A stretch of DNA of 64,000 nt from contig NZ_JBBCAT010000004.1 in the NCBI RefSeq assembly GCF_037203705.1, positions 1 through 64,000 of the forward strand, given 5' to 3'. The first letter of the stretch is position 1. Each line of letters begins with the position of its first letter. The stretch is from Prosthecomicrobium sp. N25. Its GTDB lineage: Bacteria > Pseudomonadota > Alphaproteobacteria > Rhizobiales > Ancalomicrobiaceae. The notes below the pieces were generated by a model that saw only the letters and a list, made by a program, of their open reading frames with translations, was not told where the DNA came from and did not search any database. This document shows, one piece after another, positions 3,177 through 21,713 of this stretch. Made by a program: the position numbers and the translations under genes.

Positions 3177-3193
3177 CCGGCAAAGTCTGCCGG
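3177..3193. promoter_or_regulatory. FlbD (ftr)-like palindrome between flgI and fliX
   Basis: Perfect inverted repeat CCGGCA-N5-TGCCGG. The same GGCA-N5-TGCC arrangement recurs in the other two divergent flagellar intergenic regions (12221-12239 and 21697-21713). The form recalls the ftr elements bound by the flagellar activator/repressor FlbD in Caulobacter, a match made from memory. The site sits about 120 bases upstream of the flgI sigma-54 promoter and immediately before the fliX-side CtrA box, so it could activate one direction and modulate the other. Confidence 0.6.
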
Positions 3194-3197
3194 GCGA

Positions 3198-3216
3198 TTA
3201 ACAGGGCGTTAACCAT
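3198..3216 (+). promoter_or_regulatory. CtrA box upstream of fliX
   Basis: The sequence is TTAA-CAGGGCG-TTAACCAT, a perfect TTAA-N7-TTAA site for the cell-cycle regulator CtrA including the favoured CCAT extension. It lies 50 bases before the fliX ATG and points toward it. It is one of three such boxes facing plus-strand flagellar operons. Confidence 0.8.
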
Positions 3217-3265
3217 ACCGGCCGATCCTCCGGTCGGGCTCGGCTGCGGAACGGGAGGGTCGACG

Positions 3266-3682
3266 ATGCGGATCGACGGACCGGGGCGTCCGAACGGGAT
3301 CGGCGGGCCGGCGGGGGCGCGGCGCGGCGGGGGCCAGTCGTCCTTCGCGCTGCCGGAGGAGAGCCGCACCGCGCGGGCTTCGACCACTCCCGGCGCGGGC
3401 GGCGTCTACGACGTGGCCGCGCTCATCGCCCTGCAGGCGGTTGAGGATCCCCTGCAACGCCGGCGCCGGGCCGTGCGCCGGGGATTCGACCTTCTCGACG
3501 TGCTCGATTCGATCCGGTTGGACCTGCTCGCCGGCTCGGTCTCGCCGGAGCGGCTGGAGCGGCTGGTCGGGTTGCTCGGCAAGCCGGAGGGCGCGGGGGA
3601 TCCAAAGGTGGACGCGCTCATCGAGGAGATCGAACTGCGCGCCCGGGTGGAACTGGCCAAGCGGGGCACCTATCCGGACTGA
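3266..3682 (+). CDS. fliX: Flagellar assembly regulator FliX
   Basis: A 138-residue FliX homologue. In Caulobacter FliX couples completion of the early basal body to FlbD activity, and hence to sigma-54 transcription of later flagellar genes. The N-terminal third is basic and disordered. The conserved part starts near residue 48 (VYDVAALIALQAVEDPLQRR) and continues through helices with LDVLDSIRLDLLAG to the YPD end. The ATG at 3266 has GGGAGGG seven bases upstream. The fliX/flgI divergent pair is a known alphaproteobacterial arrangement, and both promoters are visible between them. Confidence 0.88.
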   Translation: MRIDGPGRPNGIGGPAGARRGGGQSSFALPEESRTARASTTPGAGGVYDVAALIALQAVEDPLQRRRRAVRRGFDLLDVLDSIRLDLLAGSVSPERLERLVGLLGKPEGAGDPKVDALIEEIELRARVELAKRGTYPD

Positions 3683-3830
3683 AGGCCTGGAGCTAAGCCT
3701 CCGTGTTCGCGTCAGTTTTCGGTCACAGTCAGGTTCACGAGAACGTCGTCATTGCGACATTGTATCCTGCCGCGCGCCTGTCTATATTCCGCGCGCCTCG
3801 CGAGGGGGATACCAGGGAGTAGGAAGGGAC

Positions 3831-4250
3831 ATGATCACGGCCGAGATCGAAGAAGATTATCGCCCGTCGGAAGACGAACCCTTCATGAACGATCGTCAGC
3901 GTGAGTATTTTCGGAAGAAGCTGAATGCTTGGAGGGACGAGATCCTGAAGGAGTCGAAGGAGACTCTCCAGCATCTCGCCGACGAGAGCCAGAACCATCC
4001 GGATCTCGCCGACCGTGCCTCTTCGGAGACCGACCGGGCCATCGAACTCCGCGCCCGCGATCGTCAGCGAAAGCTGATCGCCAAGATCGATGCCGCCCTG
4101 AAGCGGCTCGACGACGGAACCTACGGATATTGCGAAGAGACGGGGGAGCCGATCTCGCTGAAGCGCCTCGACGCCCGGCCGATCGCGACCCTTTCGATCG
4201 AGGCCCAGGAGCGGCACGAGCGCCGCGAGCGGGTGTACCGGGACGACTGA
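3831..4250 (+). CDS. dksA: RNA polymerase-binding regulator DksA (cysteine-poor type)
   Basis: A 139-residue DksA, which enters the RNA polymerase secondary channel and, with ppGpp, adjusts transcription of ribosomal and biosynthetic genes. Residues 21-75 form the coiled coil that ends in the acidic tip, and the C-terminal part is the zinc-finger fold (YGYCEETGEPISLKRLDARP). Only one cysteine remains where classical DksA has four, so zinc binding is unlikely. This degenerate finger is a recognised alphaproteobacterial form. The ATG has AGGAAGGGA immediately upstream. The gene is monocistronic between fliX and the ABC transporter. Confidence 0.92.
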   Translation: MITAEIEEDYRPSEDEPFMNDRQREYFRKKLNAWRDEILKESKETLQHLADESQNHPDLADRASSETDRAIELRARDRQRKLIAKIDAALKRLDDGTYGYCEETGEPISLKRLDARPIATLSIEAQERHERRERVYRDD

Positions 4251-4396
4251 CCCGGACCTCAGTGACGCCGGAGCGGGGCCGCCGGTCCCGCCCGGTCCCT
4301 TGCGACCTTGTCAGGTTTCGTCCGAACCCCTACCGTCCGCACGAGGACGAGCCAAGCCGCGGGACGCGGCCATCGGCAGACGGGGAGACGACGAGA

Positions 4397-5419
4397 ATGA
4401 GGCGTATCACGCGACGGGCGGCCGGGGCCGCCCTGGCCGGGGCGGTCGTGCTGGCATCCTTGCCGGCGCTCGCGGCCGACAAGGTTTCGGTCGGCGTGCT
4501 GCGCTTCGTCTCCTCGGGCGGGCTCTTCCTCGCGGTCGAGCGCGGCTATTTCAAGGACCAGGGCATCGACGTCGACCTCAAGTTCTTCGAGGCGGCGCAG
4601 CCGATCGCGGTGGCGATCGCGTCGGGAGACATCCAGTTCGGCGTCACGGCGCTGACGGCGGGCACCTTCAACCTCGCCGGCAAGGGCGCCCTGAAGGTGA
4701 TCGCCTCGCAGGGCATGGAAAAGAAGGGTGTCAAGGGCAACGCCCTGATCGCCTCCAACGAGTCCTACGCGAAAGGCTTCACCAGTTTCGAGAAGCTGCC
4801 CGGCACCTCGATCGCGATCACGCAGGTCGGCTCCTCCTTCCACTACCAGATGGGACAGATCGCGGCCGCCAAGGGCTTCGACTTGGCCAAGATCGGGCTG
4901 AAGCCCCTGCAGTCGCTCCCCAACATGGTCGCGGCGGTGAAGTCCGGGCAGGTCGACGGGGCGCTGATCGCGCCGCACATCGCGCGGGCGATGATCGACA
5001 AGGGCGAGGCGAAGCTGGTCGGCTGGTTCTCCGACGTGGCCGAGTACCAGTTCGGCGCGCTGTTCGTCGCCTCCAAGGTGGCGACCGAGAACCGGGACCT
5101 GACGCAGCGCTTCGTGACCGCCTACCAGAAGGGCATGGCCGACTATGCCGCCGCCTTCCTGCGCGTCGACGGCAAGGGCGAGCGGGTGGTCGACGAAACG
5201 GCGAAGAGCGCGGCGGCGCTGGTCGGCAAGCACGTCTACCCGGCGGACAGCGCCGATGTCGCGGCGCCGAAGGTGATCGAATCGGCCGTCGCGGTCGACG
5301 AGAAGGCGCGGATCGACTTCGCCGACATCGAGCGGCAGATCGCCTGGAACAAGGCGGAGAAGCTGGTCACCCCCGAGGTGGACGCGAAGGCCTTCGTGGA
5401 CACGAGCTTCGCCAAGTAG
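4397..5419 (+). CDS. ABC transporter substrate-binding protein, NMT1/NitT-TauT type
   Basis: A 340-residue periplasmic binding protein. A twin-Arg-rich n-region and hydrophobic stretch end in LPALAAD, giving signal cleavage near residue 26. The mature part opens with VSVGVLRFVSSGGLFLAVERG and then YFKDQGIDVDL, the signature of the NMT1/SsuA/TauA family that feeds nitrate, sulfonate, taurine, pyrimidine-precursor or riboflavin importers. The exact substrate cannot be told from sequence. The ATG follows GGGGAG. It is the first gene of a compact operon with the ATPase (21-base gap) and the permease. Confidence 0.88.
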   Translation: MRRITRRAAGAALAGAVVLASLPALAADKVSVGVLRFVSSGGLFLAVERGYFKDQGIDVDLKFFEAAQPIAVAIASGDIQFGVTALTAGTFNLAGKGALKVIASQGMEKKGVKGNALIASNESYAKGFTSFEKLPGTSIAITQVGSSFHYQMGQIAAAKGFDLAKIGLKPLQSLPNMVAAVKSGQVDGALIAPHIARAMIDKGEAKLVGWFSDVAEYQFGALFVASKVATENRDLTQRFVTAYQKGMADYAAAFLRVDGKGERVVDETAKSAAALVGKHVYPADSADVAAPKVIESAVAVDEKARIDFADIERQIAWNKAEKLVTPEVDAKAFVDTSFAK

Positions 5420-5440
5420 CCGGCCCGAGGGACGCCGCGC

Positions 5441-6208
5441 ATGGACCTGATCGCCCGCGGCATCCGGCACGGCTACGAGGGACTGACAGTGCTCGACGAC
5501 GTCACGCTCGAGGTGGCGAGCGGCGAGATCGTCGCGGTCATTGGCCCGTCCGGCTGCGGGAAGTCGACGCTGCTGCGCATTCTCGGCGGGCTGGAGCGGC
5601 CGGACGGCGGCGCGGTGCTGACACGCGGGGCGGTGCCGAAGGGAACCCTGAACCCGCTCACCTACGTGTTCCAGGACTTCGCCCTGGTGCCCTGGCGCAG
5701 CGTCGCCGGCAACGTCGCCCTGCCGCTGGAGCATCACCGGCTGGCACCGGGCGAGCGCGAGCGGCGGGTGGCGGACGCGCTGGCGCGGGTCGGGCTCTCC
5801 GACTTCGCGGGCGCCCTGCCGCGGCAGCTCTCTGGCGGGATGCGGCAGCGCACGGCCATCGCCCGGGCCCTGGCGGTCGATCCGGCCGTGCTGCTCATGG
5901 ACGAGCCGCTCTCCGCCCTCGACGCGCAGACGCGCGAACTGCTGATGGACGACCTCCTCCGGCTCAGCGCGGCGAGTGGTTTCACGGCGGTCTACGTCAC
6001 CCACAATATCGCCGAGGCCGTCCGGCTCGGGCACAGGGTCGTGGTCCTCTCGCGCCGGCCCGGCCGCATCCGGGAGGTGGTCGAGATCGGGGTGCCGCTC
6101 GGCGAGCGGCGCGACGACCATCCGGCGGTCGCGGCCGCCCGCGACAGGCTCTGGGCGCTCATCCGCGACGAGGCGGCCGCGGCGGACCGGGAGGTGGTCC
6201 ATGGCTGA
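5441..6208 (+). CDS. ABC transporter ATPase, SsuB/TauB type
   Basis: A 255-residue nucleotide-binding subunit that energises uptake of the ligand bound by the upstream protein. It has Walker A GPSGCGKST at residues 35-43, a Q-loop VFQDFALVPW, signature LSGGMRQR, Walker B AVLLMDEPLSALD and a switch histidine in YVTHNIAEA. FALVPW after the Q-loop is typical of the nitrate/taurine/sulfonate subfamily. Its stop overlaps the permease start by eight bases, indicating translational coupling. Confidence 0.93.
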   Translation: MDLIARGIRHGYEGLTVLDDVTLEVASGEIVAVIGPSGCGKSTLLRILGGLERPDGGAVLTRGAVPKGTLNPLTYVFQDFALVPWRSVAGNVALPLEHHRLAPGERERRVADALARVGLSDFAGALPRQLSGGMRQRTAIARALAVDPAVLLMDEPLSALDAQTRELLMDDLLRLSAASGFTAVYVTHNIAEAVRLGHRVVVLSRRPGRIREVVEIGVPLGERRDDHPAVAAARDRLWALIRDEAAAADREVVHG

Positions 6209-7001
6209 GGCGGGCGACACCCGTCCCGTGCCGTTCAGGGGCGGCGGCTTCCGGCCCGGAACGCTGCCCTTCGCCGGCCCCCTGACCTTCCTGGCGGTGC
6301 TTGGCCTGTGGTGGGTGGCAAGCCATGCGGGCTGGGTCGCCCGGTTCGCGCTGCCGACGCCCGAGGAGGTCTTCCTCGCGCTCGGCGACCTCGTCGCGTC
6401 CGGCCAACTCGCCCGGCATCTCACCGCCTCGCTCGGCCGGCTGCTGGCGGGCTGGGCGCTCGGCGCCTCGGCCGGGGTTGCGGTGGGGCTCGCGATCGGG
6501 CTCTTCTCGCTCGCCCGCTCGACGGCGCTGCCGCTCGTCTCGGCCCTCTTTCCGATTCCGAAGATCGCGCTCCTGCCGCTCTTCATCCTCTGGTTCGGGA
6601 TCGGCGAGGCGTCGAAGGTCGCCACCATTGCGTTCGGGGTCTTCTCGCCCATGGCGATCGCGGCCTTCGGGGGCGTCGACGCCGTCGACCGGACGCTGAT
6701 CCGCATGGCGCAGAGCTTCGGGCTCCCGGCCCGCGACATCGTCCGCAAGATCGTCTTGCCGGGCGCGCTGCCGGCGCTCCTGTCAGGCGCGCGCATCTCG
6801 GCCTCGATCGGGATCATCCTCCTCACCGCGGCGGAGATGATCGGGGCCGAGCACGGGGTCGGGGCGCTCGTGCTGGCGGCCGGCAACCTCATGCAGACCG
6901 ACCAGCTCGTCGCCGGCGTGCTCGTGCTCTCCGGCCTGGGGCTGATCATCGCCAAGGGGATCGGCCTCCTGGAGCGGCGCCTCCTGACCTGGCGGGGCTG
7001 A
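6201..7001 (+). CDS. ABC transporter permease, SsuC/TauC type
   Basis: A 266-residue inner-membrane permease with about six transmembrane helices. The EAA loop that contacts the ATPase is visible as AQSFGLPARDIVRKIVLPGALPAL, around residues 174-197. The segment FPIPKIALLPLFILWFGIGE is characteristic of the BPD family serving nitrate/taurine/sulfonate importers. The start ATGGCTGA overlaps the ATPase stop. The gene ends 33 bases before the convergent LysR gene. Confidence 0.92.
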   Translation: MAEAGDTRPVPFRGGGFRPGTLPFAGPLTFLAVLGLWWVASHAGWVARFALPTPEEVFLALGDLVASGQLARHLTASLGRLLAGWALGASAGVAVGLAIGLFSLARSTALPLVSALFPIPKIALLPLFILWFGIGEASKVATIAFGVFSPMAIAAFGGVDAVDRTLIRMAQSFGLPARDIVRKIVLPGALPALLSGARISASIGIILLTAAEMIGAEHGVGALVLAAGNLMQTDQLVAGVLVLSGLGLIIAKGIGLLERRLLTWRG

Positions 7002-7034
7002 TCTGGGGCGGGGCTGATCCGGGCGGGGCGTGCC

Positions 7035-7937
7035 TCAGGGCGCGCGGCCGGCCGTCTCGACCAGGAAGTCGACGAGGGCGCGGACCCGGGGCAGCGCCTG
7101 CCGGCCGGGCGGCATCAGGGCCGTGATCGGGACCTCCTCGGAGACATGGTGGTCGACGAGGAGGGGGACGAGCCGGCCTGCCGCGATGGCGTCCTCCAGG
7201 ATGAAGCCGGCGAGGCGCGAGATGCCGAGGCCCGCGAGCGTCATGTCGAGGATCGCGTCGGCGCTGTCCGAGGTGACGGCGCCCGAGACCTTGACGGGCA
7301 CGACCGTCCCGCCGACCCGGAGCGGCCATTCGGCCAGGCGGGAGTAGCCGGTCAGGCGCAGGCAGGTGTGGCGCGCGAGGTCGGCCGGGGTCCGCGGGAC
7401 GCCGTGACGGGCGAGGTAGGCCGGGGAGGCGGTGATCACCCGAGTGGCGCTGCCGAGCCGGCGGGCGACGAGGGTGGAGTCGTCGAGGGGGCCGGTGCGG
7501 ATCGCCACGTCGATCTGCTCGCCGATGATGTCGACACGGCGGTCGGCCACCGACAGCTCGATCGACACGTCGGGATAGCGCTCGTGGAACGCGGGCAGGA
7601 TCGGGGCGAGCCGGTGCCGGGCGAAGGCCGTGCCGGTGTTCACGCGGACGAGACCGCGGGGGTGTCCGCGTGCGGCCATCACCTCGGCCTCCGCGGCCTC
7701 AACGGCGGCCAGGATCTCGCGGCCGCGCGCCAGCATCGTCTCGCCCTCCGGCGTCAGCGCGAGGCGGCGCGTGGTGCGCTGGAGCAGGCGGACGCCGAGC
7801 CGGTCCTCCAGGCGCGAGACGGTCCTGGAGACGCCCGAGGCGGTCAGCCCGCGCTCGGCCGCGGCGGCGGCGAAGCTGCCGAGCTCCACGACGCGAACGA
7901 AGGTGGCGATGGCGTCGGTCGGGGTGGGTCTATTCAT
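7035..7937 (-). CDS. LysR-family transcriptional regulator
   Basis: A 300-residue LysR regulator. The winged helix-turn-helix occupies residues 1-65 (FVRVVELGSFAAAAAERGLT, then SGVSRTVSRLEDRLGVRLLQ). A periplasmic-binding-like effector domain follows from about residue 90. The ATG is poorly preceded by a ribosome site. It is divergent from the small-protein/tautomerase operon, with a 7-12-7 inverted repeat in the shared 104-base gap, so that operon and itself are the likeliest targets. Control of the convergent ABC operon is possible but not suggested by layout. Confidence 0.93.
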   Translation of the reverse strand: MNRPTPTDAIATFVRVVELGSFAAAAAERGLTASGVSRTVSRLEDRLGVRLLQRTTRRLALTPEGETMLARGREILAAVEAAEAEVMAARGHPRGLVRVNTGTAFARHRLAPILPAFHERYPDVSIELSVADRRVDIIGEQIDVAIRTGPLDDSTLVARRLGSATRVITASPAYLARHGVPRTPADLARHTCLRLTGYSRLAEWPLRVGGTVVPVKVSGAVTSDSADAILDMTLAGLGISRLAGFILEDAIAAGRLVPLLVDHHVSEEVPITALMPPGRQALPRVRALVDFLVETAGRAP

Positions 7938-7960
7938 GACTTTTCATCAGGAGTGTGCGC

Positions 7961-7986
7961 TTCGATCCGCTGATTATGCGATCGAA
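7961..7986. promoter_or_regulatory. Probable LysR operator
   Basis: Perfect inverted repeat TTCGATC-N12-GATCGAA in the gap between the LysR gene and its divergent operon. The dyad with a T-to-A core and this width fits the usual LysR recognition site. A second partial repeat, TTCGAAT, lies just downstream toward the operon and could be the activation half. Confidence 0.55.
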
Positions 7987-8041
7987 TGTTTCGAATACCG
8001 TTCTCCCATGGACCGCATCGGTCCGCCAGAGGAGATCGGCC

Positions 8042-8269
8042 ATGGTTGATCCGGCTTTCGCGACCCGTCCCGCGCCCGCCTGGCGCGCCGAGGACGGCTC
8101 CATCGACTACGAGGGCATCCGCCGCGCCGCCGCGGACGCACGGTCTGCCGCCATGGCGGGGCTGGTCCGCCGCGTGCTGGCCGCCGGATCGGCCCTGCTG
8201 CTGCCGGCCCCGCCGCGCCACCGGCGTGCCCGGCCGGTCCGTCTCCACCGTCCCGAGGAGGTCCTGTGA
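8042..8269 (+). CDS. Small hypothetical protein (75 aa)
   Basis: A 75-residue basic protein. It has an acidic/aromatic start, then an amphipathic helix (YEGIRRAAADARSAAMAGLV), a short hydrophobic patch and an Arg/Pro-rich tail. The helix recalls short RSP_7527-like proteins of alphaproteobacteria, but the resemblance is weak. The ATG is 104 bases from the divergent LysR start. The TGA overlaps the tautomerase ATG in an ATGA-type junction, so it is probably translated as a lead gene. Function is unknown. Confidence 0.5.
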   Translation: MVDPAFATRPAPAWRAEDGSIDYEGIRRAAADARSAAMAGLVRRVLAAGSALLLPAPPRHRRARPVRLHRPEEVL

Positions 8270-8667
8270 TGCCGCTCGTGCAGATCGATGTTCCCGCCCT
8301 CCTGGCGCCCGAGCGCGTGCGCGCCCTGGCGGATGCCGTGCATGACGCCCTGGTGGCGACGGTGGGCGTCCCGCCGGCGGACCGGTTCCAGGTCATCCGC
8401 CGGCACCAGTCCGGCGACCTCCTCGTCGACCCGGCCTATCTCGGTATCGCGCGCGGGCCGGAGGCGGTGATCGTCGCGATCGCGTTCCGGCGCGGACGCA
8501 CCGACGAGCAGAAGCGGGCGCTCTACCGCGCCATCGCGGCCGGCGCCGCGCTCGAGGCTGAGCTTCGGCCGGAGGACGTCATGGTGGTCCTGACCGAGAA
8601 CGGTCCGGCCGACTGGTCCTTCGGGCGCGGTGTCGCCCAATATGCGGCGGAGGCGGTTCCGGCGTGA
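8269..8667 (+). CDS. Tautomerase-family protein
   Basis: A 132-residue member of the tautomerase superfamily. Residues MPLVQIDVP place proline directly after the initiator methionine, so after Met removal Pro1 becomes the catalytic base of this family. That fixes the ATG at 8269 rather than the GTG one codon earlier. GAGGAGG lies nine bases ahead. The length is about twice that of 4-oxalocrotonate tautomerase, matching longer members with a second beta-alpha-beta unit. The natural substrate is unknown. It is transcribed with the 75-residue protein and is likely controlled by the divergent LysR regulator. Confidence 0.8.
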   Translation: MPLVQIDVPALLAPERVRALADAVHDALVATVGVPPADRFQVIRRHQSGDLLVDPAYLGIARGPEAVIVAIAFRRGRTDEQKRALYRAIAAGAALEAELRPEDVMVVLTENGPADWSFGRGVAQYAAEAVPA

Positions 8668-8703
8668 CGGCGCCGTCGCCAACCGGACTACCGGACAAGG
8701 GAC

Positions 8704-8734
8704 GGCGCGGGCCCGTGGGGAGCGGGCCCGCGCC
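8704..8734. terminator. GC-rich hairpin after the tautomerase gene
   Basis: A perfect 12-base-pair stem (GGCGCGGGCCCG and its complement) with a seven-base loop sits between the convergent tautomerase and flgH genes. There is no proper U-tract on either side, so it is a terminator-like or transcript-end hairpin rather than a textbook intrinsic terminator. Confidence 0.55.
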
Positions 8735-8829
8735 TTCGTGTGCGCCGGCCGGGTGGGGAGGCCCGGGGGGATCCGGCGCGCTGGGGAGGGATGCCGGGCG
8801 TCGGCTCGCGGCCACGCCCGGGAACGCGG

Positions 8830-9570
8830 TCAGAACGGCAGGATGATGTCGAGCACCTGGTTGCCGTAGCGCGGCTGCTGGACGTCGGTGATCTGGCCGC
8901 GGCCGCCGTAGGCGATGCGGGCCTCGGCGATCTTGGTGGACTCGATCGTGTTGTCGGCCGCGATGTCCTCCGGGCGGATGATGCCGGCGACGATCAGCTC
9001 GCGGATCTCGAAGTTGACCCGGATCTCCTGACGCCCCTCGACCACCAGGTTGCCGTTGGGCAGGACCTGGGTGACTACGGCGGCGACGTTGGTCTCCAGC
9101 TTCTCGGAGCGGTTGACGGAGCCCGAGCCCGCGTTCTCGTTCTTGGCGGTGGTGGCGACGAGGTTCGAGGCGGAGGTCTCGGTTGGGATCACCTTCTGCA
9201 GGTAGTAGCCCGGGACGCCGCCGACGCTGTCGGTCTCGGTCGTCGAGCGCGAGCGCTTGGTCTCGTTGTCGATCTCGGCCTTGTCGCCGATCGTCACCTT
9301 CACGGTCAGGATGTCGCCGACGCGGGCGGCGCGCTGGTCCTTGAAGAAGGCGCGCGCGCCGGAGCGCCAGAGCGAGTTCGGCGCGTAGGCGGCGACCTGC
9401 GGGTCTGGCATCGGCAGGCTGACGGGCTTGTAGCCGGGCTGGGCGGTCGGGTCCTTGATCGCCGTGAGCTTCGGCGTGTCGCCGACATTCGACAGTCGGT
9501 CGAGCGTGTTCGAGCAGGCCCCGAGGGGCGCGGCCGCGAGGGCGAGGAGGAGGATACGCGAGACTGTCAC
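8830..9570 (-). CDS. flgH: Flagellar L-ring lipoprotein FlgH
   Basis: A 246-residue outer-membrane L-ring subunit. A lipoprotein signal peptide ends in the lipobox LGAC with the acylated cysteine at residue 19. The family motif SLWRSGARAFFKDQRAARVGD and the end (ITDVQQPRYGNQVLDIILPF) are clear. The start is a GTG overlapping the flgA TGA, with GGGAGGG eight bases upstream. An upstream reading frame in the same phase runs antiparallel to nothing known and is not part of the gene. It is the last gene of the flgF-G-A-H operon. Confidence 0.95.
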   Translation of the reverse strand: MTVSRILLLALAAAPLGACSNTLDRLSNVGDTPKLTAIKDPTAQPGYKPVSLPMPDPQVAAYAPNSLWRSGARAFFKDQRAARVGDILTVKVTIGDKAEIDNETKRSRSTTETDSVGGVPGYYLQKVIPTETSASNLVATTAKNENAGSGSVNRSEKLETNVAAVVTQVLPNGNLVVEGRQEIRVNFEIRELIVAGIIRPEDIAADNTIESTKIAEARIAYGGRGQITDVQQPRYGNQVLDIILPF

Positions 9571-10556: not shown

Positions 10557-10565
10557 GGCTCAACC

Positions 10566-11362: not shown

Positions 11363-12097
11363 TCAGCTCACCTGGCCGAGCTTCTCGATCGCCGAGCGAC
11401 GGAGGTCGTCGGCGTTCTGCATCCACTTGGCGACGCTCTCGTAGCTGCGCTGGACCGCGATCATGCGGGAGAGCTCGACCACGCCGCGCACGTTGGACTT
11501 CTCGATCTGTCCCTGGACGACCCGGGGCAGGGTGGCCGGAATGGGGTTCTCGCCCTCGAAGAGCGTCTCCCCGACCTTCTTCAGGCTGCCCTGCCTCTCG
11601 AAGTCGACGACCCTCAGCTTCCCCTTGACCCCCTGGTTTGTTGAGATCGTGCCGTCGGAGGCGATCGACAGGTTGGTCTCGCCAGGCTGCAGCGTCAGCG
11701 GCCCGCCATCGGTCAGGACGGCGTCGTTGTCGCGGGTGACGAGCTGGCCCTGGGCGTTGACCGCGAAGGAGCCGTTGCGCGTGTAGCGTTCGCCCTGCGG
11801 CGTCTGCACGACGAACCAGCCGCGGCCGTCCAGGGCGACGTCGGTCGGGTTGCCGGTCGCGGTCATCTGCCCCGGCTGCATGTCGTAGAGGTTGGCGTCG
11901 TCGACGACGAAGCTGATCGGCTGGTCGGGCCGCAGGAAGGTGTTGGCGGCGGCGCGCGGCTGGCCGATCTCCTCGAAGAGCAGCGACTGCGCCTTGAAGC
12001 CGTTGGTGTTGATGTTGGCCAGGTTGTTGGCGATCAGGTCCATCTGCCTCTGCAGCGTCACCTGTCGCGACAGCCCGACGAGCTGTGCGTTTTCCAT
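11363..12097 (-). CDS. flgF: Proximal rod protein FlgF
   Basis: A 244-residue proximal-rod subunit. Residues 1-40 (QMDLIANNLANINTNGFKAQ) and the C-terminus (RGVVELSRMIAVQRSYESVA, then KWMQNADDLRR) carry the paired rod/hook helices. The DGRGWFVVQTPQGERYTRNG segment is typical of FlgF/FlgG. A GGGGA ribosome site precedes the ATG. It leads the leftward flgF-flgG-flgA-flgH operon from the sigma-54 promoter at 12153-12168. Confidence 0.95.
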   Translation of the reverse strand: MENAQLVGLSRQVTLQRQMDLIANNLANINTNGFKAQSLLFEEIGQPRAAANTFLRPDQPISFVVDDANLYDMQPGQMTATGNPTDVALDGRGWFVVQTPQGERYTRNGSFAVNAQGQLVTRDNDAVLTDGGPLTLQPGETNLSIASDGTISTNQGVKGKLRVVDFERQGSLKKVGETLFEGENPIPATLPRVVQGQIEKSNVRGVVELSRMIAVQRSYESVAKWMQNADDLRRSAIEKLGQVS

Positions 12098-12152
12098 CGA
12101 TCGTCCCCAGCGACCGCCGTCAGCTCCCCAGCCTGGCGGTCCGGGATCCCAA

Positions 12153-12168
12153 TGCGAGACCCGTGCCA
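12153..12168 (-). promoter_or_regulatory. Sigma-54 promoter of flgF
   Basis: The minus strand reads TGGCACGGGTCTCGCA, with -24 GG and -12 GC at the correct spacing, about 56 bases ahead of flgF. It shares TGGCACG and TCGCA with the flgI promoter and differs only in the N4 spacer. Confidence 0.8.
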
Positions 12169-12220
12169 GACGGAAAAATGGCGGATCTCTGGGCTTTTCG
12201 AGCCGGGACCGGCGTCCCCG

Positions 12221-12239
12221 CCCGGCAGGGTTTGCCGGG
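12221..12239. promoter_or_regulatory. FlbD (ftr)-like palindrome between flgF and fliL
   Basis: Perfect seven-base inverted repeat CCCGGCA-N5-TGCCGGG, the longest of the three copies in this window. It lies about 60 bases upstream of the flgF sigma-54 promoter, consistent with an enhancer site, and about 115 bases upstream of the fliL CtrA box. Confidence 0.6.
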
Positions 12240-12353
12240 TCGCCGCAGCGCGGGGGCGGTCGTTGCCGGGCAACGGAATTCAGCGGTCGGCGTAACCCTT
12301 CGTTATTTCACAATACACGGCCCGGACCCCCAAATCCTTCCAAACCGTTAATC

Positions 12354-12372
12354 TTTACAGTTCATTAACCAT
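12354..12372 (+). promoter_or_regulatory. CtrA box upstream of fliL
   Basis: The sequence is TTTA-CAGTTCA-TTAACCAT, one mismatch from TTAA-N7-TTAA and carrying the same CCAT extension as the fliX and flgB boxes. It lies 68 bases before the fliL ATG. Confidence 0.65.
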
Positions 12373-12440
12373 TTTCTCCTTAGCTGTTCCCCGCGCGGAT
12401 ACGCGTGGAGTACGCGCGATTCCGAGGGCCCGGGGGCAGG

Positions 12441-12971
12441 ATGGCGAAGAAGCCGACCAAGAAGGACGAGGCGGAGGCCGCGGCGCCGGAGGGCGCCGAC
12501 GACGCCGCCAAGGCCAAGAAGAAGAAGCTCATCGTCTTCGGCGGTGCCGGCCTCGCCGTGCTCCTGATCGGAGGCGGCGCGGGCGCCTACTTCATCGGGC
12601 TGTTCGGCGGCAAGGCCGCCGACGAGCACGGTGTACACCCCGCGGCGCACGCGGAGGCGCCGAAGCCGGCGATGTTCGTCGAGCTTCCGGAGCTCACCGT
12701 CAACCTGTCGACCATCGACCAGCGGGCCACGTACCTGAAGGTCAAGATCGCGCTGGAGGTCACCGACAGCGCCGCCGTCGCCAAGATCCAGCCGATCCTG
12801 CCGCGCGTGCTCGACGCCTTCCAGGTGTACCTGCGCGAGTTGCGCAGCTCCGACCTCGACGGCTCAGCCGGACTCTATCGGGTCAAGGAGGAGCTGCAGA
12901 AGCGCGTCAACATCGCGATCTACCCGGCGCGGGTCGATGCCGTGCTGTTCAAGGAAATCCTGATCCAGTAG
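12441..12971 (+). CDS. fliL: Flagellar basal-body protein FliL
   Basis: A 176-residue single-pass inner-membrane protein that stabilises the stator-rotor interface. A Lys-rich cytoplasmic start is followed by a transmembrane helix at about residues 34-56 and a periplasmic stomatin-like domain (FVELPELTVNLS...YLKVKIALEV...ALFKEILIQ-type end). The ATG at 12441 is preceded by GGGGGCAGG. It is the first gene of a four-gene plus-strand operon and sits nine bases ahead of fliM. Confidence 0.93.
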   Translation: MAKKPTKKDEAEAAAPEGADDAAKAKKKKLIVFGGAGLAVLLIGGGAGAYFIGLFGGKAADEHGVHPAAHAEAPKPAMFVELPELTVNLSTIDQRATYLKVKIALEVTDSAAVAKIQPILPRVLDAFQVYLRELRSSDLDGSAGLYRVKEELQKRVNIAIYPARVDAVLFKEILIQ

Positions 12972-14207: not shown

Positions 14208-14716
14208 CGAGCACGTGGATCGGAATCGGCATCGAGGCAATCGTTGCCGTTCTCCTCGCCATCACAATATCTTATTGTGTTATGCTCAACTCGCGCCTCA
14301 AGCGGCTTCGGGCCGACGAGTCGCAGCTCAAGGCGACCATCCTGGAGCTGGTGCGGGCAACCGAGATCGCCGAGCGGGCGATCCTCGGGCTGAAGCAGGC
14401 CGCGCAGGATTGCGACCAGACCCTCGCCAAGCGAGTGCGCGAGGCGGAGTTCTTCTCGGTGGAGATCGCCCGTGAGATCGGGGAGGGCGAGCAGGTGCTC
14501 GACCGCATCGCCCAGATCACGCGGACGGTCAGGGGGATTTCCGCGCCGGCGGCCGCGGAGCCCGAGGGCGGCGGCGAGGCCGGCGCTCCGGCTGCGGCTC
14601 CGGCTCCGGCCGCGGACGCCAAGGCGCCGCGGATGTCCGAGCTCAAGATGAAGTTCGCGCAGTCGGCCGAGCGCCTGGCGAGCCTGCGCAAGGATCTCGA
14701 AGGCCAGGCCGCATGA
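14204..14716 (+). CDS. DUF6468-type membrane protein, PflI-like
   Basis: A 170-residue bitopic protein. A transmembrane helix spans about residues 7-29, followed by a long cytoplasmic coiled coil (ILELVRATEIAERAILGLKQ and onward to about residue 105), an Ala/Pro linker and a final helix. The position right after fliM and the membrane-helix/coiled-coil/Ala-Pro plan match DUF6468 proteins. In Caulobacter the gene after fliM is pflI, needed for correct flagellum placement. That functional link is inferred from gene order. It overlaps fliM and the MotE-like gene by four bases on each side. Confidence 0.6.
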   Translation: MTSTWIGIGIEAIVAVLLAITISYCVMLNSRLKRLRADESQLKATILELVRATEIAERAILGLKQAAQDCDQTLAKRVREAEFFSVEIAREIGEGEQVLDRIAQITRTVRGISAPAAAEPEGGGEAGAPAAAPAPAADAKAPRMSELKMKFAQSAERLASLRKDLEGQAA

Positions 14717-15465: not shown

Positions 15466-15478
15466 GCGCGGCTTCGAC

Positions 15479-15493
15479 TTAACCGGCCGTTCA
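15479..15493 (+). promoter_or_regulatory. CtrA-like site before the TPR gene
   Basis: The sequence TTAA-CCGGCCG-TTCA differs at one base from TTAA-N7-TTAA. Its N7 spacer CCGGCCG is identical to that of the perfect flgB box. It lies 56 bases upstream of the TTG start, a distance like that of the other flagellar CtrA boxes here. Confidence 0.45.
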
Positions 15494-15548
15494 CGGCGGC
15501 CGTTTACCCTTCGCGGGTCCCGCAGTTCCCGCGTCGAAGGGACTTCGT

Positions 15549-18500
15549 TTGCGTCCGGCCTACGCCATACCGTCGACGATCGCTACCCGCGTCGCCAGGG
15601 CCCTCCGGGTCGCCCTCGTGGCCGCCGCCGCCCTTGTGTGGCCGGCCTCCCAGGCCGCCGCGCAGGGGAACGCGCGCGCCGAGGTGACGGCGACGCAGGA
15701 GAAGGGCTTCGGCCGGATCACGGTCAGCTTCACCGACCGCACACTCCTGCCGCAGTTCACCACGCGGGTCTCCGGGAACGTACTCGTCGTGCAGTTCGCC
15801 GAGCCGGTGACGGTCGACGTCGATCGTCTGCCGACGCTGATGCCCGCCTATGTGCAGATCGCCCGGCGCGATCCGGACGGGCAGGCGCTGCGCTTCGCGC
15901 TGACCCGGCAGGTGAAGGTCAATACGCTCGAGGCGGGGGAGAAGCTCTTCATCGACCTCCTGCCGCCGACCTGGGCGGGGCCGCCGCCCGGGCTGCCGGA
16001 CGCCGTCGTGCAGGAGCTCGCCCGGCGGGCCGAGGCGGCGCTGAAGGCACAACGCGAGGCGGAGAAGCAGAGGTTCGGCCTCAAGGTCCTGCCCAAGCTC
16101 GACTTCCGGGTCGGGCGCCATCCGACCTTCACGCGCTTCTCCTTCGGCTGGAACGTACCCTTCGACACGCAGCTCGCCCGCGAGGACGACCGGGTCGTGC
16201 TGACCTTCAACCGGATGGCCGAGATCGACTTCGCCCCCGTGCTGACCGACCCGCCGCCCGCGCTGAAGGAGATCGCGGGGGAACGGGACGGCGACAAGCT
16301 CAAGATCGTCATGACGATCGCGCCGGAGGCGGACGTCCGCGCGTTCCGGGAGGACCAGAGCTACGTGGTCGACCTGTCCCTGCCGGGCAAGCCCGCTAAC
16401 GCGGCCGAGGCCGCCGTGCGCAAGGCGCTCGCCGAGTCCTCGGGGGTCGGCGAGAGGGCCCGCGAGCTCGTCACCGCGCCGGCGGCCCCCGCCTCGTCCA
16501 AGGGAGCGGCCCCGCACGGCGACGCGGCCCTGACCGGCCTCGCCCTGCCGTCCCCGCAAGCGCCGGCGGCCGCTCCCGCCAAGGGCTCGGCCCCGAAGCC
16601 GGCGCAGCCCGCCTTTCCGAGGGCCGCCGAAGCCGGGGCGCCGGGGTCCAAGGCGGCGGACCCGGCGCCGGCGGCCCATTCGCCCGCCGCGGCACCCGGC
16701 ACGGGGGCGGCGGAGGGCCAAGAGATGGCCAAGGGCCCGGCCGACGACCAGGGCGGCGAAGCGGACCCGACGGCCCAGCACGGCGAGGGCCCGCAGGACA
16801 CCACGGCCGCCCGTTCGACGGACCTGCGCATCGTCCGGGTCGAGGCCAAGCGGATCGGCAACATCGTCCGCATCGCGTTCCCGTTCGCCGGCAAGGTGGC
16901 GAGCGCGGCCTTCAAGCGCGACGACGCGCTCTGGGTGGTGTTCGATTCCGAGATGCAGTTCGACACCCGCGCGATCGGGGCGTCCCTCGGCCCGCTCGCC
17001 CGCTCGGTGACGGTGACGAAGACCGAGCGGGGCCAGGCCATCCGCATCCTGCTCGGCGAGCCGATGCTGACGACCCTCGGTGCGGACGGGAATTCCTGGA
17101 TCCTCACCATCGGCGAGATGGTGCTCGAGCCGGCGCGGCCGCTCTCGATCCAGCGCGTGTTCCGGGGCGGCGGGCAGGGGGCGCTGAAGGTCGAGCTGGC
17201 CGACGCGGGCAGCGTCCACGAGATCCAGGACCCGGTCGTGGGCGACAGGATGGTGGTCGTCACGGCCCTCGGTCCGGCGCGCGGGATCTTGAAGCCCTAC
17301 AGCTACAGCGAGCTCGACACGGTTCCGTCGGCCCACGGCGTGGCGGTGGTGCCCCGCACGGACGACCTGTCGGTCTCGCTCGAGCCCGGGCAGGTGGTCA
17401 TCTCGCGCGAACGCGGGCTCAACCTGTCGACCGGCTCCCTGACCCAGCCGCCCGATTTCAGCATCCCCAACGCGGAGCGCAAGAAGGCCAGGCGGCTGGT
17501 CGACCCCTCGGTCTTCGCTATCCAGGACCCCGCCGACTTCACGGCCCGCATCCGCTCGCTCATCGAAAAGGTGGGCCTCGCGCCGGAGCCCCAGAAGAAC
17601 GCGGCGCGGTTCGACCTCGCGGAATTCTACATTGCCCACCGATTCGGGCCGGAGGCGCTCGGCGTCCTCCGGCTGATCGCCTCCCAGGAGCCGGGCATCG
17701 AGCGCGATCCCGGCTTCATCGTTCTCTTCGCCGCCGCGCAGACCATGACGGGGCGGACCGCCGAGGCGCGCCGGGCGCTCGGCCGCAGCGAGGTCGCCGA
17801 CAACGCGGACGCGGCGCTGTGGCGCACGATCGCGGCGGCGGCGGAGCAGAAGTGGGACGAGGCGCGCGAGAGCGCCAGCAAGGCGGCGGGCGCCGTGGGG
17901 GGTTATCCACCGGACGTGCGCGCGCTGTTCGGCCTGGCGGCGGCCGAGGCCGCCGTCGAGCTCAACGACTTCGCGACGGCCCAGTCGCGGCTGGCCGAGA
18001 TCGAGCCCGACGAGGTCGAGACGGACCTGCGCGCCCGCTACGAGCTCCTGCAGGCGCGGGTCGCGGACGCGGCGGGGCGGCCGGAGGATGCGACCGAGCG
18101 GTACCAGCGGGTGATCGCGACCGGCGACCGGATGGCCGGCGCGGAGGCGGAGTACCGGCGGCTGCGCCAGCTCGTGCGCGACGCGCGGATCCCGCCCGAG
18201 GAGGCGATCGACCGGCTGAAGTCGCTCGCCTTCGACTGGCGCGGCGACGAGATCGAGCTGAAGACCCTCCGGTTCCTGGCCAACCTGCAGTCCCAGCACG
18301 GGCTCTGGCGCGACGCCTTCCAGTCCATGCGCGCCGCCGTAATGGTGGCGCCGGATGCTTCGACCACCCGTCTCCTGCAGGACGAGATGGGCCGCGAGTT
18401 CGTCTCGCTCTATCTCGACAACAAGGCGGACCGCCTGTCGCCCGTTGACGCGCTGACGCTCTACTACGACTTCCGCGACCTGACGCCGATCGGGCGGCTC

Positions 18501-19346
18501 GGCGACGAGATCGTGCGCAAGATCGCCGACCGGCTGGTCGGGGTCGATCTCCTCGACCCAGCGGCGGAACTGCTCACCTACCAGATCGACAACCGCCTGC
18601 GCGGTGCGGCGCGGGCGCAGATCGCGGCGGACCTCGCCGTCGTCCACCTCCTCGACCGCAAGCCCGACAAGGCGCTCGCGGTGCTGAACAAGACCCGGCA
18701 GTCGCAGCTGCCGACCTCGGTGGAACGTCAGCGGCGCATGGTGGAGGCCCGGGCGCTCTCGGAGACCGGGCGCGGGGACGTGGCGCTGGAACTGGTCGGA
18801 TCGCTCGGCGGCACGGACGTGGACAGGCTGCGGGCCGACATCCTGTGGCGGAGCAAGCGCTGGCGCGAGGCGGGCGAACGGCTCGAGACGATGCTCGGCG
18901 GGCGCTGGACGGAAGGCCCGCCCCTCGATCCGCAGGAACGGCAGGACGTGCTGCGGGCGGCGGTCGCCTATTCGCTCGGGAACGACAGCCTCGGGCTCGG
19001 GCGCCTGCGGGGCAAGTTCGCCGAGAAGATGGCGGCCGGCCCGAACGCGGCGGCGTTCGAGGTCGTCACCGCGCCGATCCAGAGCCAGGGCAACGAGTTC
19101 CGCTCCATCGCCAGAGAGATCGCGGCCGTGGACACGATGCGGAACTTCCTCGAGGAATACCGCAGCCAGTACATGAAGCCGGCGGACCAGCCGAAGGAGC
19201 CGGAGAAGAAGGACAAGGCGCCTCCGGGGCCGCAGGCCGCGGACAGGACGCCGGCGGGCACCAGGCTCGCCGCCGCCGAGCCGCCGGCCGACAAGGGCGG
19301 CGAAAAGCCTGCCGAAGCGGCGTCCGGAAAGGCCGCGGGGCACTGA
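15549..19346 (+). CDS. Large secreted tetratricopeptide-repeat protein
   Basis: A 1265-residue protein starting with TTG after a GAAGGGA ribosome site. A signal peptide covers about residues 1-38 (ASQAAAQGN). Residues 40-300 form beta-rich domains (FGRITVSFTDRTLLPQFTTR). Residues 300-420 are an Ala/Pro/Gly-rich linker, and a second beta domain repeats the theme (FPFAGKVASAAFKRDDALWV). From about 660 to 1200 it is helical TPR-like (AEFYIAHRFGPEALGVLRLI; YELLQARVADAAGRPEDATE). It is probably periplasmic. Large TPR proteins in flagellar clusters of Hyphomicrobiales have no assigned role that I can name. Position and a CtrA-like site suggest co-regulation with motility. Confidence 0.8.
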   Translation: MRPAYAIPSTIATRVARALRVALVAAAALVWPASQAAAQGNARAEVTATQEKGFGRITVSFTDRTLLPQFTTRVSGNVLVVQFAEPVTVDVDRLPTLMPAYVQIARRDPDGQALRFALTRQVKVNTLEAGEKLFIDLLPPTWAGPPPGLPDAVVQELARRAEAALKAQREAEKQRFGLKVLPKLDFRVGRHPTFTRFSFGWNVPFDTQLAREDDRVVLTFNRMAEIDFAPVLTDPPPALKEIAGERDGDKLKIVMTIAPEADVRAFREDQSYVVDLSLPGKPANAAEAAVRKALAESSGVGERARELVTAPAAPASSKGAAPHGDAALTGLALPSPQAPAAAPAKGSAPKPAQPAFPRAAEAGAPGSKAADPAPAAHSPAAAPGTGAAEGQEMAKGPADDQGGEADPTAQHGEGPQDTTAARSTDLRIVRVEAKRIGNIVRIAFPFAGKVASAAFKRDDALWVVFDSEMQFDTRAIGASLGPLARSVTVTKTERGQAIRILLGEPMLTTLGADGNSWILTIGEMVLEPARPLSIQRVFRGGGQGALKVELADAGSVHEIQDPVVGDRMVVVTALGPARGILKPYSYSELDTVPSAHGVAVVPRTDDLSVSLEPGQVVISRERGLNLSTGSLTQPPDFSIPNAERKKARRLVDPSVFAIQDPADFTARIRSLIEKVGLAPEPQKNAARFDLAEFYIAHRFGPEALGVLRLIASQEPGIERDPGFIVLFAAAQTMTGRTAEARRALGRSEVADNADAALWRTIAAAAEQKWDEARESASKAAGAVGGYPPDVRALFGLAAAEAAVELNDFATAQSRLAEIEPDEVETDLRARYELLQARVADAAGRPEDATERYQRVIATGDRMAGAEAEYRRLRQLVRDARIPPEEAIDRLKSLAFDWRGDEIELKTLRFLANLQSQHGLWRDAFQSMRAAVMVAPDASTTRLLQDEMGREFVSLYLDNKADRLSPVDALTLYYDFRDLTPIGRLGDEIVRKIADRLVGVDLLDPAAELLTYQIDNRLRGAARAQIAADLAVVHLLDRKPDKALAVLNKTRQSQLPTSVERQRRMVEARALSETGRGDVALELVGSLGGTDVDRLRADILWRSKRWREAGERLETMLGGRWTEGPPLDPQERQDVLRAAVAYSLGNDSLGLGRLRGKFAEKMAAGPNAAAFEVVTAPIQSQGNEFRSIAREIAAVDTMRNFLEEYRSQYMKPADQPKEPEKKDKAPPGPQAADRTPAGTRLAAAEPPADKGGEKPAEAASGKAAGH

Positions 19347-19370
19347 GCCCGGCGCGCGCGCCGCGCCCCC

Positions 19371-20216
19371 TCAGCCGAAGCTCTTCACCAGGCTGCCAGC
19401 GACCAGGTTCCAGCCGTCGACCAGCACGAAGAAGATCAGCTTGAACGGCAGCGAGATCGTGACCGGCGGCAGCATCATCATGCCCATGGACATGAGAACG
19501 GAGGCGACCACCAGGTCGATGATCAGGAAGGGGAGGTAGAGCAGGAAGCCGATCTCGAAGGCGCGGCGGAGCTCCGAGATCATGAAGGCCGGGATCAGGA
19601 TGCGGTAGCTGACGTCCTCCGGGCTGGCGGGCCGGGCCTCGCCGGAGAGGTTCACGAAGAGCTCGAGGTCCTTCTCGCGGACCTGGTTGCGCATGAAGAC
19701 GTGGAAGGGCTGGGCGGCGCGCTCGATCGCCTGGTCGAGCTCGATGGTGTTCTCGGTCAGAGGCCGGATGCCCTCGTCGTAGGCCTGGGTGAAGACCGGG
19801 CTCATCACGAAGGCGGTCAGGAAGAGCGCGAGGCTGATCATCACCGAGTTGGGCGGCGCGGTCTGCAGGCCGATGGCCGTGCGCAGCAGCGAGAGCACCA
19901 CGACGATGCGGGTGAAGCTCGTCACCATCACGACGATCGAGGGGGCGATCGACAGGACGGTGATGACCGCGATGAGCTGGACGGCCCGCTCGGTGACCGT
20001 GTTGCCCTGGCCGAAGTTGATCGAGATGTCCTGCGCCGAGGCGGGGAGCGCGCCGGCGAGGAGCAGGCCGGCCGCGAGGGCGGCGATCGCCAGCAGGGCG
20101 CCGCATGCCCAGAGCGCGGCCGGAAGCTGCCGGGCCGCGTCGCGCGACAGGACGGCGCGACGGCCCTCAGCGCCGGACCGACCCGGCGACGCCGGGCCGT
20201 GCGCCGCGGTGGTCAT
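19371..20216 (-). CDS. fliP: Flagellar export gate protein FliP
   Basis: A 281-residue export-gate subunit. A signal-like N-terminal region ends near ASAQDISINFGQG. The family motifs follow: PSIVVMVTSFTRIVVVLSLLR, PPNSVMISLALFLTAFVMSP, FMISELRRAFEIGFLLYLPF and LIIDLVVASVLMSMGMMMLPP, with four membrane helices forming the FliPQR gate. The ATGA junction overlaps the fliO stop by four bases. The roughly 60-residue N-terminal extension before the cleavage site is longer than in enterobacterial FliP, so a later start is possible. Confidence 0.95.
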   Translation of the reverse strand: MTTAAHGPASPGRSGAEGRRAVLSRDAARQLPAALWACGALLAIAALAAGLLLAGALPASAQDISINFGQGNTVTERAVQLIAVITVLSIAPSIVVMVTSFTRIVVVLSLLRTAIGLQTAPPNSVMISLALFLTAFVMSPVFTQAYDEGIRPLTENTIELDQAIERAAQPFHVFMRNQVREKDLELFVNLSGEARPASPEDVSYRILIPAFMISELRRAFEIGFLLYLPFLIIDLVVASVLMSMGMMMLPPVTISLPFKLIFFVLVDGWNLVAGSLVKSFG

Positions 20217-21628
20217 CTGTTGGCGGGTCCGGACAGCTCGGAGAGGAGCTTGGCCATCTCGGCCTCGAGTTCCTCCGCGGGGTTGCGCGGCTTCGACGGC
20301 TCGGCGGGGGCCGGCTCGGGCGGGCGGGCGGCAGCCGGTCCGGGCACGAAGGCGGCGGCCGTCTCGGGGCCGCGCCCCGGGGCCGGCGGCGGGGCGGCCG
20401 TCGCGGCCGGTGCAGGCGCAGGCGGTGCCGCCGGGCGCGGCGGCTGGGTGGGGGGCGCGGGCGTCTCCGGGGCCTTCGGCCGCTCCATCACCGCCACGCC
20501 GCCCGCGGCGGCGGGACGTTCCGGCGGAAGGGGTGGCGCTGCCGGCCGGACGGGGCGCTGGTCGCCGGGGCGGGGGGTGATGACCGACGCCAGGTCGGCG
20601 AGGGCCCGCTCGATCTCGCCGGCCACGATGTCGCGCGTCGCCTCCGGGGCGACCGGACGGGACCGGGCCGCGGCGGGCTCGGGGACGGGCGGCGGCGGGG
20701 GCGGCGCGGTCGGCGCCTCGCGGCGTTCGGCCACGTGCGCCGGCGGAGCGGCCGGTGCCGGCGGCGGCGCGGGACGGGGCACGGGTGCCTGCGGGGCGGG
20801 CGCAGTGGCGGCCGGCGGCGCGGCGGGCGGGGTCATGCGGGCGGGGTTGCGAAGGCCGACCGCCATGGTCGGCTCCTCGCGCAGGCGCTCCTCATCCTCC
20901 GCCGGGATCGCCGGGCCGCCGACCTTCACGGGCGCGGGCCGCGGCGGCGCCTCCGGGGTCGGTTCGGGGCGGACCGGAGAGGCAGCCTCGGTGCGCGCGG
21001 GCTCGGGGCGCGCGGGCTCGGGGCGCGGGGGTGCCTCGGCGCGGGCCGGCTCCGGCCGGGCGGGCGCTTCGGCGCGGGCCGGCGGGGCGGGCTCGCGCGG
21101 CGGCTCGGGTGCGCGCGGCGGCGGCGCGGGCGGGGGCGCCTCGGCGCGCCGGCGCTCGTTGAGGGCGGCCTTGAGGTCGGCCGCAACGCTGTTGGTGCGC
21201 GGCGGGGCCCCCGGGCCGGCGGCGAGCTCGGCACGCGCGACCGGCGGGGTCACGGCGGGAGCGGCGGGCGGCGGAGGCGGCACGCCGGCGGCCGCCGGCA
21301 CGGAGGGCGCGTTGACCATCGGGTGGGCGCGCAGGATGCGGCTCTCGACGAGGACGTCGTTCGGGCCGCCGATCATGACGAGGTGCTCGACGTCGTCGCG
21401 GCGGAGCAGCACCAGCCGGCGCCGGCCGTCGACATTGGCCGCGTCGACCACGGCGAGCCGGCTGCGGCCGCGGGGATCCTGGCCCGCCGCGCCGATGCGC
21501 CCGCCGGACACCTTGCGGATGATCCAGGCGATCAGCACGATCAGCAGCACCACGAAGGCCAGCGCCAGGGCCATCTGGGCGGCGCGTCCGCCGTCGGCGC
21601 CGAGCATCGAATTCAGCCAGTCCCGCAT
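20213..21628 (-). CDS. fliO: FliO-like protein with very long Pro/Ala-rich tail
   Basis: A 471-residue protein. Residues 1-105 are a normal FliO: a membrane helix at about 16-38 (MALALAFVVLLIVLIAWIIR), then the compact cytoplasmic domain (RSRLAVVDAANVDGRRRLVL; HLVMIGGPNDVLVESR). FliO scaffolds FliP during gate assembly. Residues from about 106 to 445 are extreme Pro/Ala/Arg/Glu low complexity with imperfect repeats such as ARPEPARAEAP. A short conserved-looking amphipathic helix (AEELEAEMAKLLSELSG) ends it. FliO is usually 100-150 residues. The frame stays open throughout and overlaps fliP, so the tail seems to be translated. Confidence 0.8.
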   Translation of the reverse strand: MRDWLNSMLGADGGRAAQMALALAFVVLLIVLIAWIIRKVSGGRIGAAGQDPRGRSRLAVVDAANVDGRRRLVLLRRDDVEHLVMIGGPNDVLVESRILRAHPMVNAPSVPAAAGVPPPPPAAPAVTPPVARAELAAGPGAPPRTNSVAADLKAALNERRRAEAPPPAPPPRAPEPPREPAPPARAEAPARPEPARAEAPPRPEPARPEPARTEAASPVRPEPTPEAPPRPAPVKVGGPAIPAEDEERLREEPTMAVGLRNPARMTPPAAPPAATAPAPQAPVPRPAPPPAPAAPPAHVAERREAPTAPPPPPPVPEPAAARSRPVAPEATRDIVAGEIERALADLASVITPRPGDQRPVRPAAPPLPPERPAAAGGVAVMERPKAPETPAPPTQPPRPAAPPAPAPAATAAPPPAPGRGPETAAAFVPGPAAARPPEPAPAEPSKPRNPAEELEAEMAKLLSELSGPANR

Positions 21629-21696
21629 CCCGGGTCACTCCTTCGCGCCGGAGGATCCTCGCGAATCTCCCCCGTGCGCCACGATATTAACGGACG

Positions 21697-21713
21697 GCGG
21701 CAGTTTCTGCCGC
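21697..21713. promoter_or_regulatory. FlbD (ftr)-like palindrome between fliO and flgB
   Basis: Perfect inverted repeat GCGGCA-N5-TGCCGC, the third copy of the GGCA-N5-TGCC element. No matching sigma-54 promoter was found toward fliO, so this copy may act on the flgB side or on an unseen promoter. Confidence 0.5.

Follow-up and report, generated by a model that had tools for sequence, protein, structure and literature searches.

Palindromes between divergent flagellar operons of Prosthecomicrobium sp. N25 are probable FlbD sites in two promoter settings

Three perfect copies of the palindrome GGCA-N5-TGCC lie between divergent flagellar operons in Prosthecomicrobium sp. N25, within the first 64,000 nucleotides of contig NZ_JBBCAT010000004.1 (assembly GCF_037203705.1; this whole stretch is called the window below), raising the question of which protein reads them and whether it acts in the same way at each. 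Our analysis indicates that they are very probably ftr elements, the binding sites of FlbD, an NtrC-type activator partnered by FliX. This identity, proposed in a first-pass annotation, is well supported by the presence of an FlbD gene, by conservation of the motif at the same promoters in relatives and by the co-occurrence of motif and FlbD across genomes. A FlbD switch at such promoters is a well-supported but known kind of control and is not new; the fresh detail is a fixed geometry between CtrA boxes and ftr elements that is kept across relatives.

In Caulobacter, FlbD binds ftr elements, activates middle and late flagellar genes and represses fliF through ftr4, under the control of FliX (PMC3930126, PMC3096577, PMC7064773). 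Features common to that system and the present one are an FlbD gene, a putative FliX gene, sites upstream of sigma-54 flagellar promoters, a putative operator-like site at fliF and CtrA boxes at early genes (PMC3930126, PMC3096577). A data set of Caulobacter FlbD binding sites is cited in PMC12421884, and the openly licensed literature, judged by titles and the beginnings of abstracts, yielded no treatment of ftr sites in the group studied here.

The palindrome and its conservation

Exact-sequence searches found each of the three inverted repeats described in the first-pass annotation as a single copy, flanked as it had stated by a minus-strand and a plus-strand flagellar gene. Two degenerate copies accompany them:

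3177 to 3193, no strand: ftr site 1, CCGGCAAAGTCTGCCGG, between flgI and fliX
12221 to 12239, no strand: ftr site 2, CCCGGCAGGGTTTGCCGGG, between flgF and fliL
21697 to 21713, no strand: ftr site 3, GCGGCAGTTTCTGCCGC, between fliO and flgB
12255 to 12267, no strand: degenerate second ftr copy, GGCGGTCGTTGCC, one mismatch, 31 bp from site 2
21829 to 21841, no strand: degenerate ftr copy, GGAAGATTTTGCC, one mismatch, exactly +25 bp from the start of the flgB CtrA box

Conservation was assessed in 38 loci from relatives (Ancalomicrobiaceae, Pelagibacterium, Cohaesibacter and others) fetched by a FliL search. Two genomes carry the genus label of the window, Prosthecomicrobium hirschii (G039, identified from contig position and an identical MinC hit) and G040. 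Region counts take the loci in which both genes were found, divergent and within 900 bp of each other, that is, 27, 36 and 18 of the 38 for flgI/fliX, flgF/fliL and fliO/flgB, respectively. The exact motif was present in 18/27, 28/36 and 13/18 of these regions, at densities of 3.03, 2.81 and 4.00 sites per kb. Outside these regions, the same loci amount to 625,378 bp and hold 30 sites, a density of 0.048 per kb, so that the three regions are 58-83 times richer. An unbiased scan of all 4+4 palindromes with gaps of 0-12 ranked GGCA-N5 first in flgF/fliL and second, behind TTAA-N7, in the other two regions; in 20 shuffles, the commonest palindrome reached 6 (flgI/fliX), 5 (flgF/fliL) and 4 (fliO/flgB) loci. 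The consensus drawn from 82 sites of relatives approximates YSGGCARAWTYTGCCSR.

Variations on the sites were also seen in relatives. Two loci carry two exact copies 31 bp apart in the flgF/fliL region (L034, at 7812 and 7843; L071, at 7415 and 7446), and tandem copies with a fixed 14 bp spacing stand upstream of fliL in L047, L062 and L068. Five Cohaesibacter loci (L045, L046, L054, L059 and L064) all have TGCA-N5-TGCC near fliX and GGAA-N5-TGCC near fliL, a parallel drift.

Perfect GC-rich inverted repeats with a five-base loop might also be read as an RNA hairpin or terminator. We regard this as very improbable, as each repeat is flanked by genes that point away from each other. The three stretches fold unremarkably (z -1.58, -0.01 and -1.43), and a scan of 11900-12500, the sole stretch covered, revealed no terminator-like site.

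The genes flanking the three sites are as follows:

1893 to 3020, minus strand: flgI (NF003676, 457 bits)
3266 to 3682, plus strand: fliX, start set by eye (NF050808, 115 bits, curated cut-off 175; scanned as 3062-3682)
11363 to 12097, minus strand: flgF (TIGR02490, 196 bits, above the cut-off of 178.5)
12405 to 12971, plus strand: fliL (NF009420, 194.8 bits, slightly under the cut-off of 197; best match)
20213 to 21628, minus strand: fliO (weak, 29.3 bits against an NCBIfam cut-off of 55.25; best match; followed by fliP)
21862 to 22296, plus strand: flgB, heading the run flgB-flgC-fliE-...-fliR-flhB-cckA (the ATG at 21886 is a possible coding start)

A putative FliX gene, with a score under the cut-off, does adjoin site 1. 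Between fliX and flgH (3929-8667), the flagellar cluster also contains an SsuA/TauA-type ABC transporter, a LysR-type regulator and a tautomerase-like gene.

FlbD and the distribution of the motif

The absence of an FlbD gene had been named beforehand as grounds for giving up the FlbD reading. The genome of strain N25 encodes a full-length FlbD (G000:C3:469635-471023; NF050807, 808.5 bits, cut-off 750), located downstream of fliF-fliG-fliH-fliN, and the protein carries GAFTGA, the motif through which such activators contact sigma-54. FlbD was likewise found in 38/38 relatives, with 32 matches above the cut-off, three full-length matches just under it (725-739 bits) and three fragments apparently cut by contig ends. 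A plasmid search for FlbD yielded 12 Azospirillum records and one Methylobacterium record.

Co-occurrence was followed with a composite pattern, GGCARNNNYTGCC-N(2-32)-TTAA-N7-TTAA, which joins an ftr element to a CtrA box, searched in 101 genomes. It was present in 50/101 genomes, with 84 matches in total against a single match for the reversed control. Uncorrected for relatedness, the composite was found in 47/64 FlbD-positive genomes (G041 and G047 were scored positive from fragments) versus 3/37 FlbD-negative ones. Among the FlbD-negative genomes, the only ones searched for fliP, 12 had a fliP match over the cut-off, and two of these carried the composite (G087 and G113). The composite of G087 (L133) has none of 33 query proteins beside it; G113 has flagellar composites, with genome completeness at 86% and FlbD present in its congener G066. 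We further inspected 30 fetched composite loci (L114-L143) along with the places in the genome of N25. Twenty-eight of the 30 lie at flagellar genes or flbD, one being the flhA locus of N25 itself, and the other two, L133 and L141, match none of the 33 query proteins and come from the FlbD-negative genomes G087 and G056.

A dyad geometry alone names no protein, and five further strong sigma-54 activator domains are encoded in the genome, so that another dimeric regulator of flagellar genes, either a different NtrC-type activator or a CtrA-linked factor, might occupy the palindrome. We consider this improbable because composites track FlbD (47/64 versus 3/37, or versus 2/12 when only fliP-positive FlbD-negative genomes are taken) and because the copies in N25, exact at flgI, flgF, flgE, fliK and flhA and degenerate at fliF, sit at targets of the Caulobacter FlbD type.

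Several observations weigh against the identification of the palindromes as FlbD sites. Genome-wide, the motif shows no enrichment: GGCA-N5-TGCC occurs at 144 places against 262 for its reversed control, the looser GGCARNNNYTGCC at 52 against 126, and CCGGCA-N5-TGCCGG at 7 against 10. The exact motif is absent from 9/27 flgI/fliX, 8/36 flgF/fliL and 5/18 fliO/flgB regions of relatives, although a one-mismatch copy is present in 18 of these 22 regions, where about 2.1 would be expected by base shuffling. The FliX match, despite being the best (E 2.7e-33), stays at 115 bits below its curated NCBIfam cut-off. Seventeen of the 64 FlbD-positive genomes lack the exact composite, related genomes in the co-occurrence test are not independent, and flagella may be missing from 25/37 FlbD-negative genomes, in which no fliP match passes the cut-off.

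With a core found 144 times, below the reversed control, the palindromes might be taken for chance products of 70% GC DNA. The window alone argues otherwise, with seven copies of GGCA-N5-TGCC against 1.35 expected (0/100 shuffles reached seven), and chance is refuted by conservation, since the corresponding promoters of relatives carry the motif 58-83 times as often as the remainder of their loci, which leaves it hardly credible. The four window copies beyond the three sites lie in coding sequence (7090, 23843 and 26251) or, in one case, 28 bp 3' of fliM, where an ftr-like palindrome spans 14236-14248.

The genome search with CCGGCA-N5-TGCCGG that the first-pass annotation had suggested is therefore uninformative by itself. 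Flagellar promoters account for three of its seven places (two in the window, one before fliK), and the other four have none of 33 flagellar or min query proteins of N25 within 1.5 kb. Nor does the motif as written define a regulon on its own, as had been considered possible, since its genome-wide frequency is at or below the reversed control. Classification of GGCARNNNYTGCC covers 50 of its 52 places. Six are at flagellar promoters: flgI/fliX, flgF/fliL, fliO/flgB, the fliK-flgD operon (C3:478441), flhA (C3:490813) and flgE (C5:281969), and one more stands before minC (C4:113208). Among the 50, 34 were flagged as coding-like and 16 were not, two of the 34 flags (C4:3179 and C4:113208) being due to extension of an open reading frame upstream of its likely start. 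Pfam matches confirmed FliK, FlgE, MinC, a MinD/ParA-type ATPase and MinE, and NCBIfam matches confirmed FlhA and FlgD.

Two promoter settings: sigma-54 promoters and CtrA boxes

Enhancers of NtrC-type activators are generally dyad sites located 60-120 bp upstream of a sigma-54 promoter. The present sites are alike in the placement of the dyad, whereas their half-site and their target set are flagellar and track FlbD. Sigma-54 promoters were scored on a hand-made 8-point scale; the Caulobacter RpoN motif in print is GGCNC-N4-CTTGC (PMC4287350). Two promoters were found in the window:

3052 to 3067, minus strand: sigma-54 promoter (-24/-12) of flgI, TGGCACGACCCTCGCA, score 7/8, 118 bp from the ftr centre
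12153 to 12168, minus strand: sigma-54 promoter of flgF, TGGCACGGGTCTCGCA, score 7/8, 62 bp from the ftr centre

These distances, measured from the palindrome centre, agree with the 60-125 bases previously given for two of the copies. Minus-strand promoters scoring at least 6/8 were present in 37/37 flgF and 27/28 flgI regions (window included), where base shuffles predict about 0.2-0.3. In N25, the exact copies at flgE and fliK are accompanied by sigma-54 matches as well. By contrast, no sigma-54 promoter was detected in any of 19 fliO/flgB regions (window included), with both strands scoring at most 5. The proposal that the palindrome is an enhancer thus fits sites 1 and 2 and does not fit site 3.

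The palindrome is itself reminiscent of a -24/-12 element, its GGCA...TGC resembling TGGCAC...TTGC, and could in principle be a misread sigma-54 promoter. Sigma-54 promoters follow the rule GG-N10-GC, in which the starts of GG and GC are 12 apart; the palindrome has GG-N8-GC, with a start distance of 10, a spacing that refutes this assignment. Sites 1 and 2 moreover have separate sigma-54 matches beside them, and we attach almost no probability to this explanation.

The setting of site 3 is defined by CtrA boxes, with the consensus TTAA-N7-TTAA. Four boxes or box-like sequences were located:

3198 to 3212, plus strand: CtrA box TTAA-N7-TTAA of fliX, exact, with TTAACCAT toward fliX; start of the ftr core 19 bp ahead of the box
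12354 to 12368, plus strand: CtrA-like box of fliL, one mismatch
21729 to 21743, minus strand: CtrA-like box toward fliO, TGAA-N7-TTAA, one mismatch, starting 32 bp from the core of site 3
21804 to 21818, plus strand: CtrA box of flgB, TTAACCGGCCGTTAACCAT, exact

Spacing was counted around TTAA-N7-TTAACCA boxes, using distinct boxes only. Among 56 such boxes, GGCA starts at +25 from the box start in 28 exact and 8 one-mismatch cases; in the loci chosen by the composite (L114-L143), an ftr near a CtrA box is there by selection, while the preference for +25 among the allowed spacings is not. In loci not chosen by motif, +25 accounts for 9 exact and 7 one-mismatch copies among 32 boxes, compared with 4 exact copies at other offsets between 19 and 50. 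Further groups of offsets were found at -19 to -23, at about -71 and at -102 to -106. At flgB, the window itself has an exact core at -105 besides the one-mismatch copy at +25, and its core at fliX, also exact, starts at -19.

The same register recurs elsewhere in N25. An exact ftr stands at +25 of the CtrA box of flhA. Upstream of fliF (C3, at the ends of L072 and L073), a one-mismatch CtrA box, TTAACCGGCCGTTTA, is followed at +25 by the one-mismatch ftr GGAAATTCTTGCC, an arrangement like that of ftr4; an exact copy was not found at the fliF promoter. On the fliO side, boxes akin to that of the window were seen by eye at 31-33 bp in L038, L040 and L042, and a scan demanding a perfect second half found the box of the window alone. 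Several Pelagibacterium loci have, by eye, a TATGCTA-like sequence directly before the fliO-side ftr.

In R. sphaeroides, the distance from the end of the CtrA box to the transcription start is 23-24 nt, which is said to agree with C. crescentus (PMC6180460). An ftr at +25 should therefore overlie the -10 region and extend as far as the start. No sigma-54 promoter stands beside site 3, and the CtrA-ftr geometry, with many copies in relatives at exactly +25, makes it more likely that this site serves as an operator for the repression of early genes.

These placements suggest how the switch would work, with the FliX-controlled timing carried over from Caulobacter by analogy. After completion of the early basal structure, FlbD in its active form would occupy the palindromes as dimers. 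At flgI and flgF, it would act as an enhancer 60-120 bp upstream and contact the sigma-54 polymerase, turning on genes for the rod, the P-ring and related parts. Early promoters driven by CtrA, namely those of fliO and flgB in the window and of fliF and flhA elsewhere in N25, carry the site either across their start region or in the +25 register of the CtrA box, where bound FlbD should block polymerase and turn early genes off. Since an ftr also adjoins the CtrA box of fliX, the partner of FlbD may itself be under FlbD feedback.

The arrangement at flgB departs from that of Caulobacter, where the flgB promoter is reported to be CtrA-repressed and most rod genes to be RpoN- and FlbD-dependent (PMC6180460). 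In N25, a CtrA box faces flgB, with ftr-like sites on both sides and no sigma-54 match, and operator-like sites are also found at flhA and flgB. The fla2 system of Rhodobacter sphaeroides likewise has divergent flagellar operons with CtrA boxes; unlike here, RpoN is reported to have no role in it, and no FlbD is reported for the Rhodobacteraceae shown in that paper (PMC6180460). We also noted that cckA (25338-27914; NF046020, 1279 bits) lies directly 3' of flhB, so this kinase, named for the CtrA pathway, may belong to the flgB-flhB operon, which has a CtrA box and an ftr-like site.

A copy before minCDE and the possible reach of the switch

One exact copy lies outside the flagellar genes. Upstream of minCDE, a perfect CtrA box is preceded by the ftr CCCCGGCAAAATCTGCCG, whose core begins 40 bp ahead of the box (L090:9209-9263 = C4:113208-113262). 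The CtrA-type box is kept in both congeners, P. hirschii and G040, whereas the ftr is absent from both. MinC was found in 5/38 relatives, P. hirschii included; GGCA-N5-TGCC is absent at four of these five MinC loci, and the fifth, L104, has a copy some 410 bp upstream that falls within other open frames. In S. meliloti, CtrA represses minCD (PMC4433202). We treat the minCDE site as a lead and not as a result: that the FlbD switch extends beyond flagella in this species, such that the amount of the division inhibitor MinC would also depend on the flagellar assembly checkpoint, appears unlikely. If true, it would connect FliX/FlbD directly to cytokinesis, a link that has reportedly been made in Caulobacter.

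Taken together, these results extend the flagellar checkpoint known from Caulobacter to the Prosthecomicrobium group and to other genomes of the same order. They suggest a readable rule, in which the position of an ftr distinguishes an enhancer from an operator, and they suggest for flgB a promoter class different from that of most Caulobacter rod genes. The fixed +25 register, in turn, makes the shut-off of early genes by FlbD directly testable in many species.

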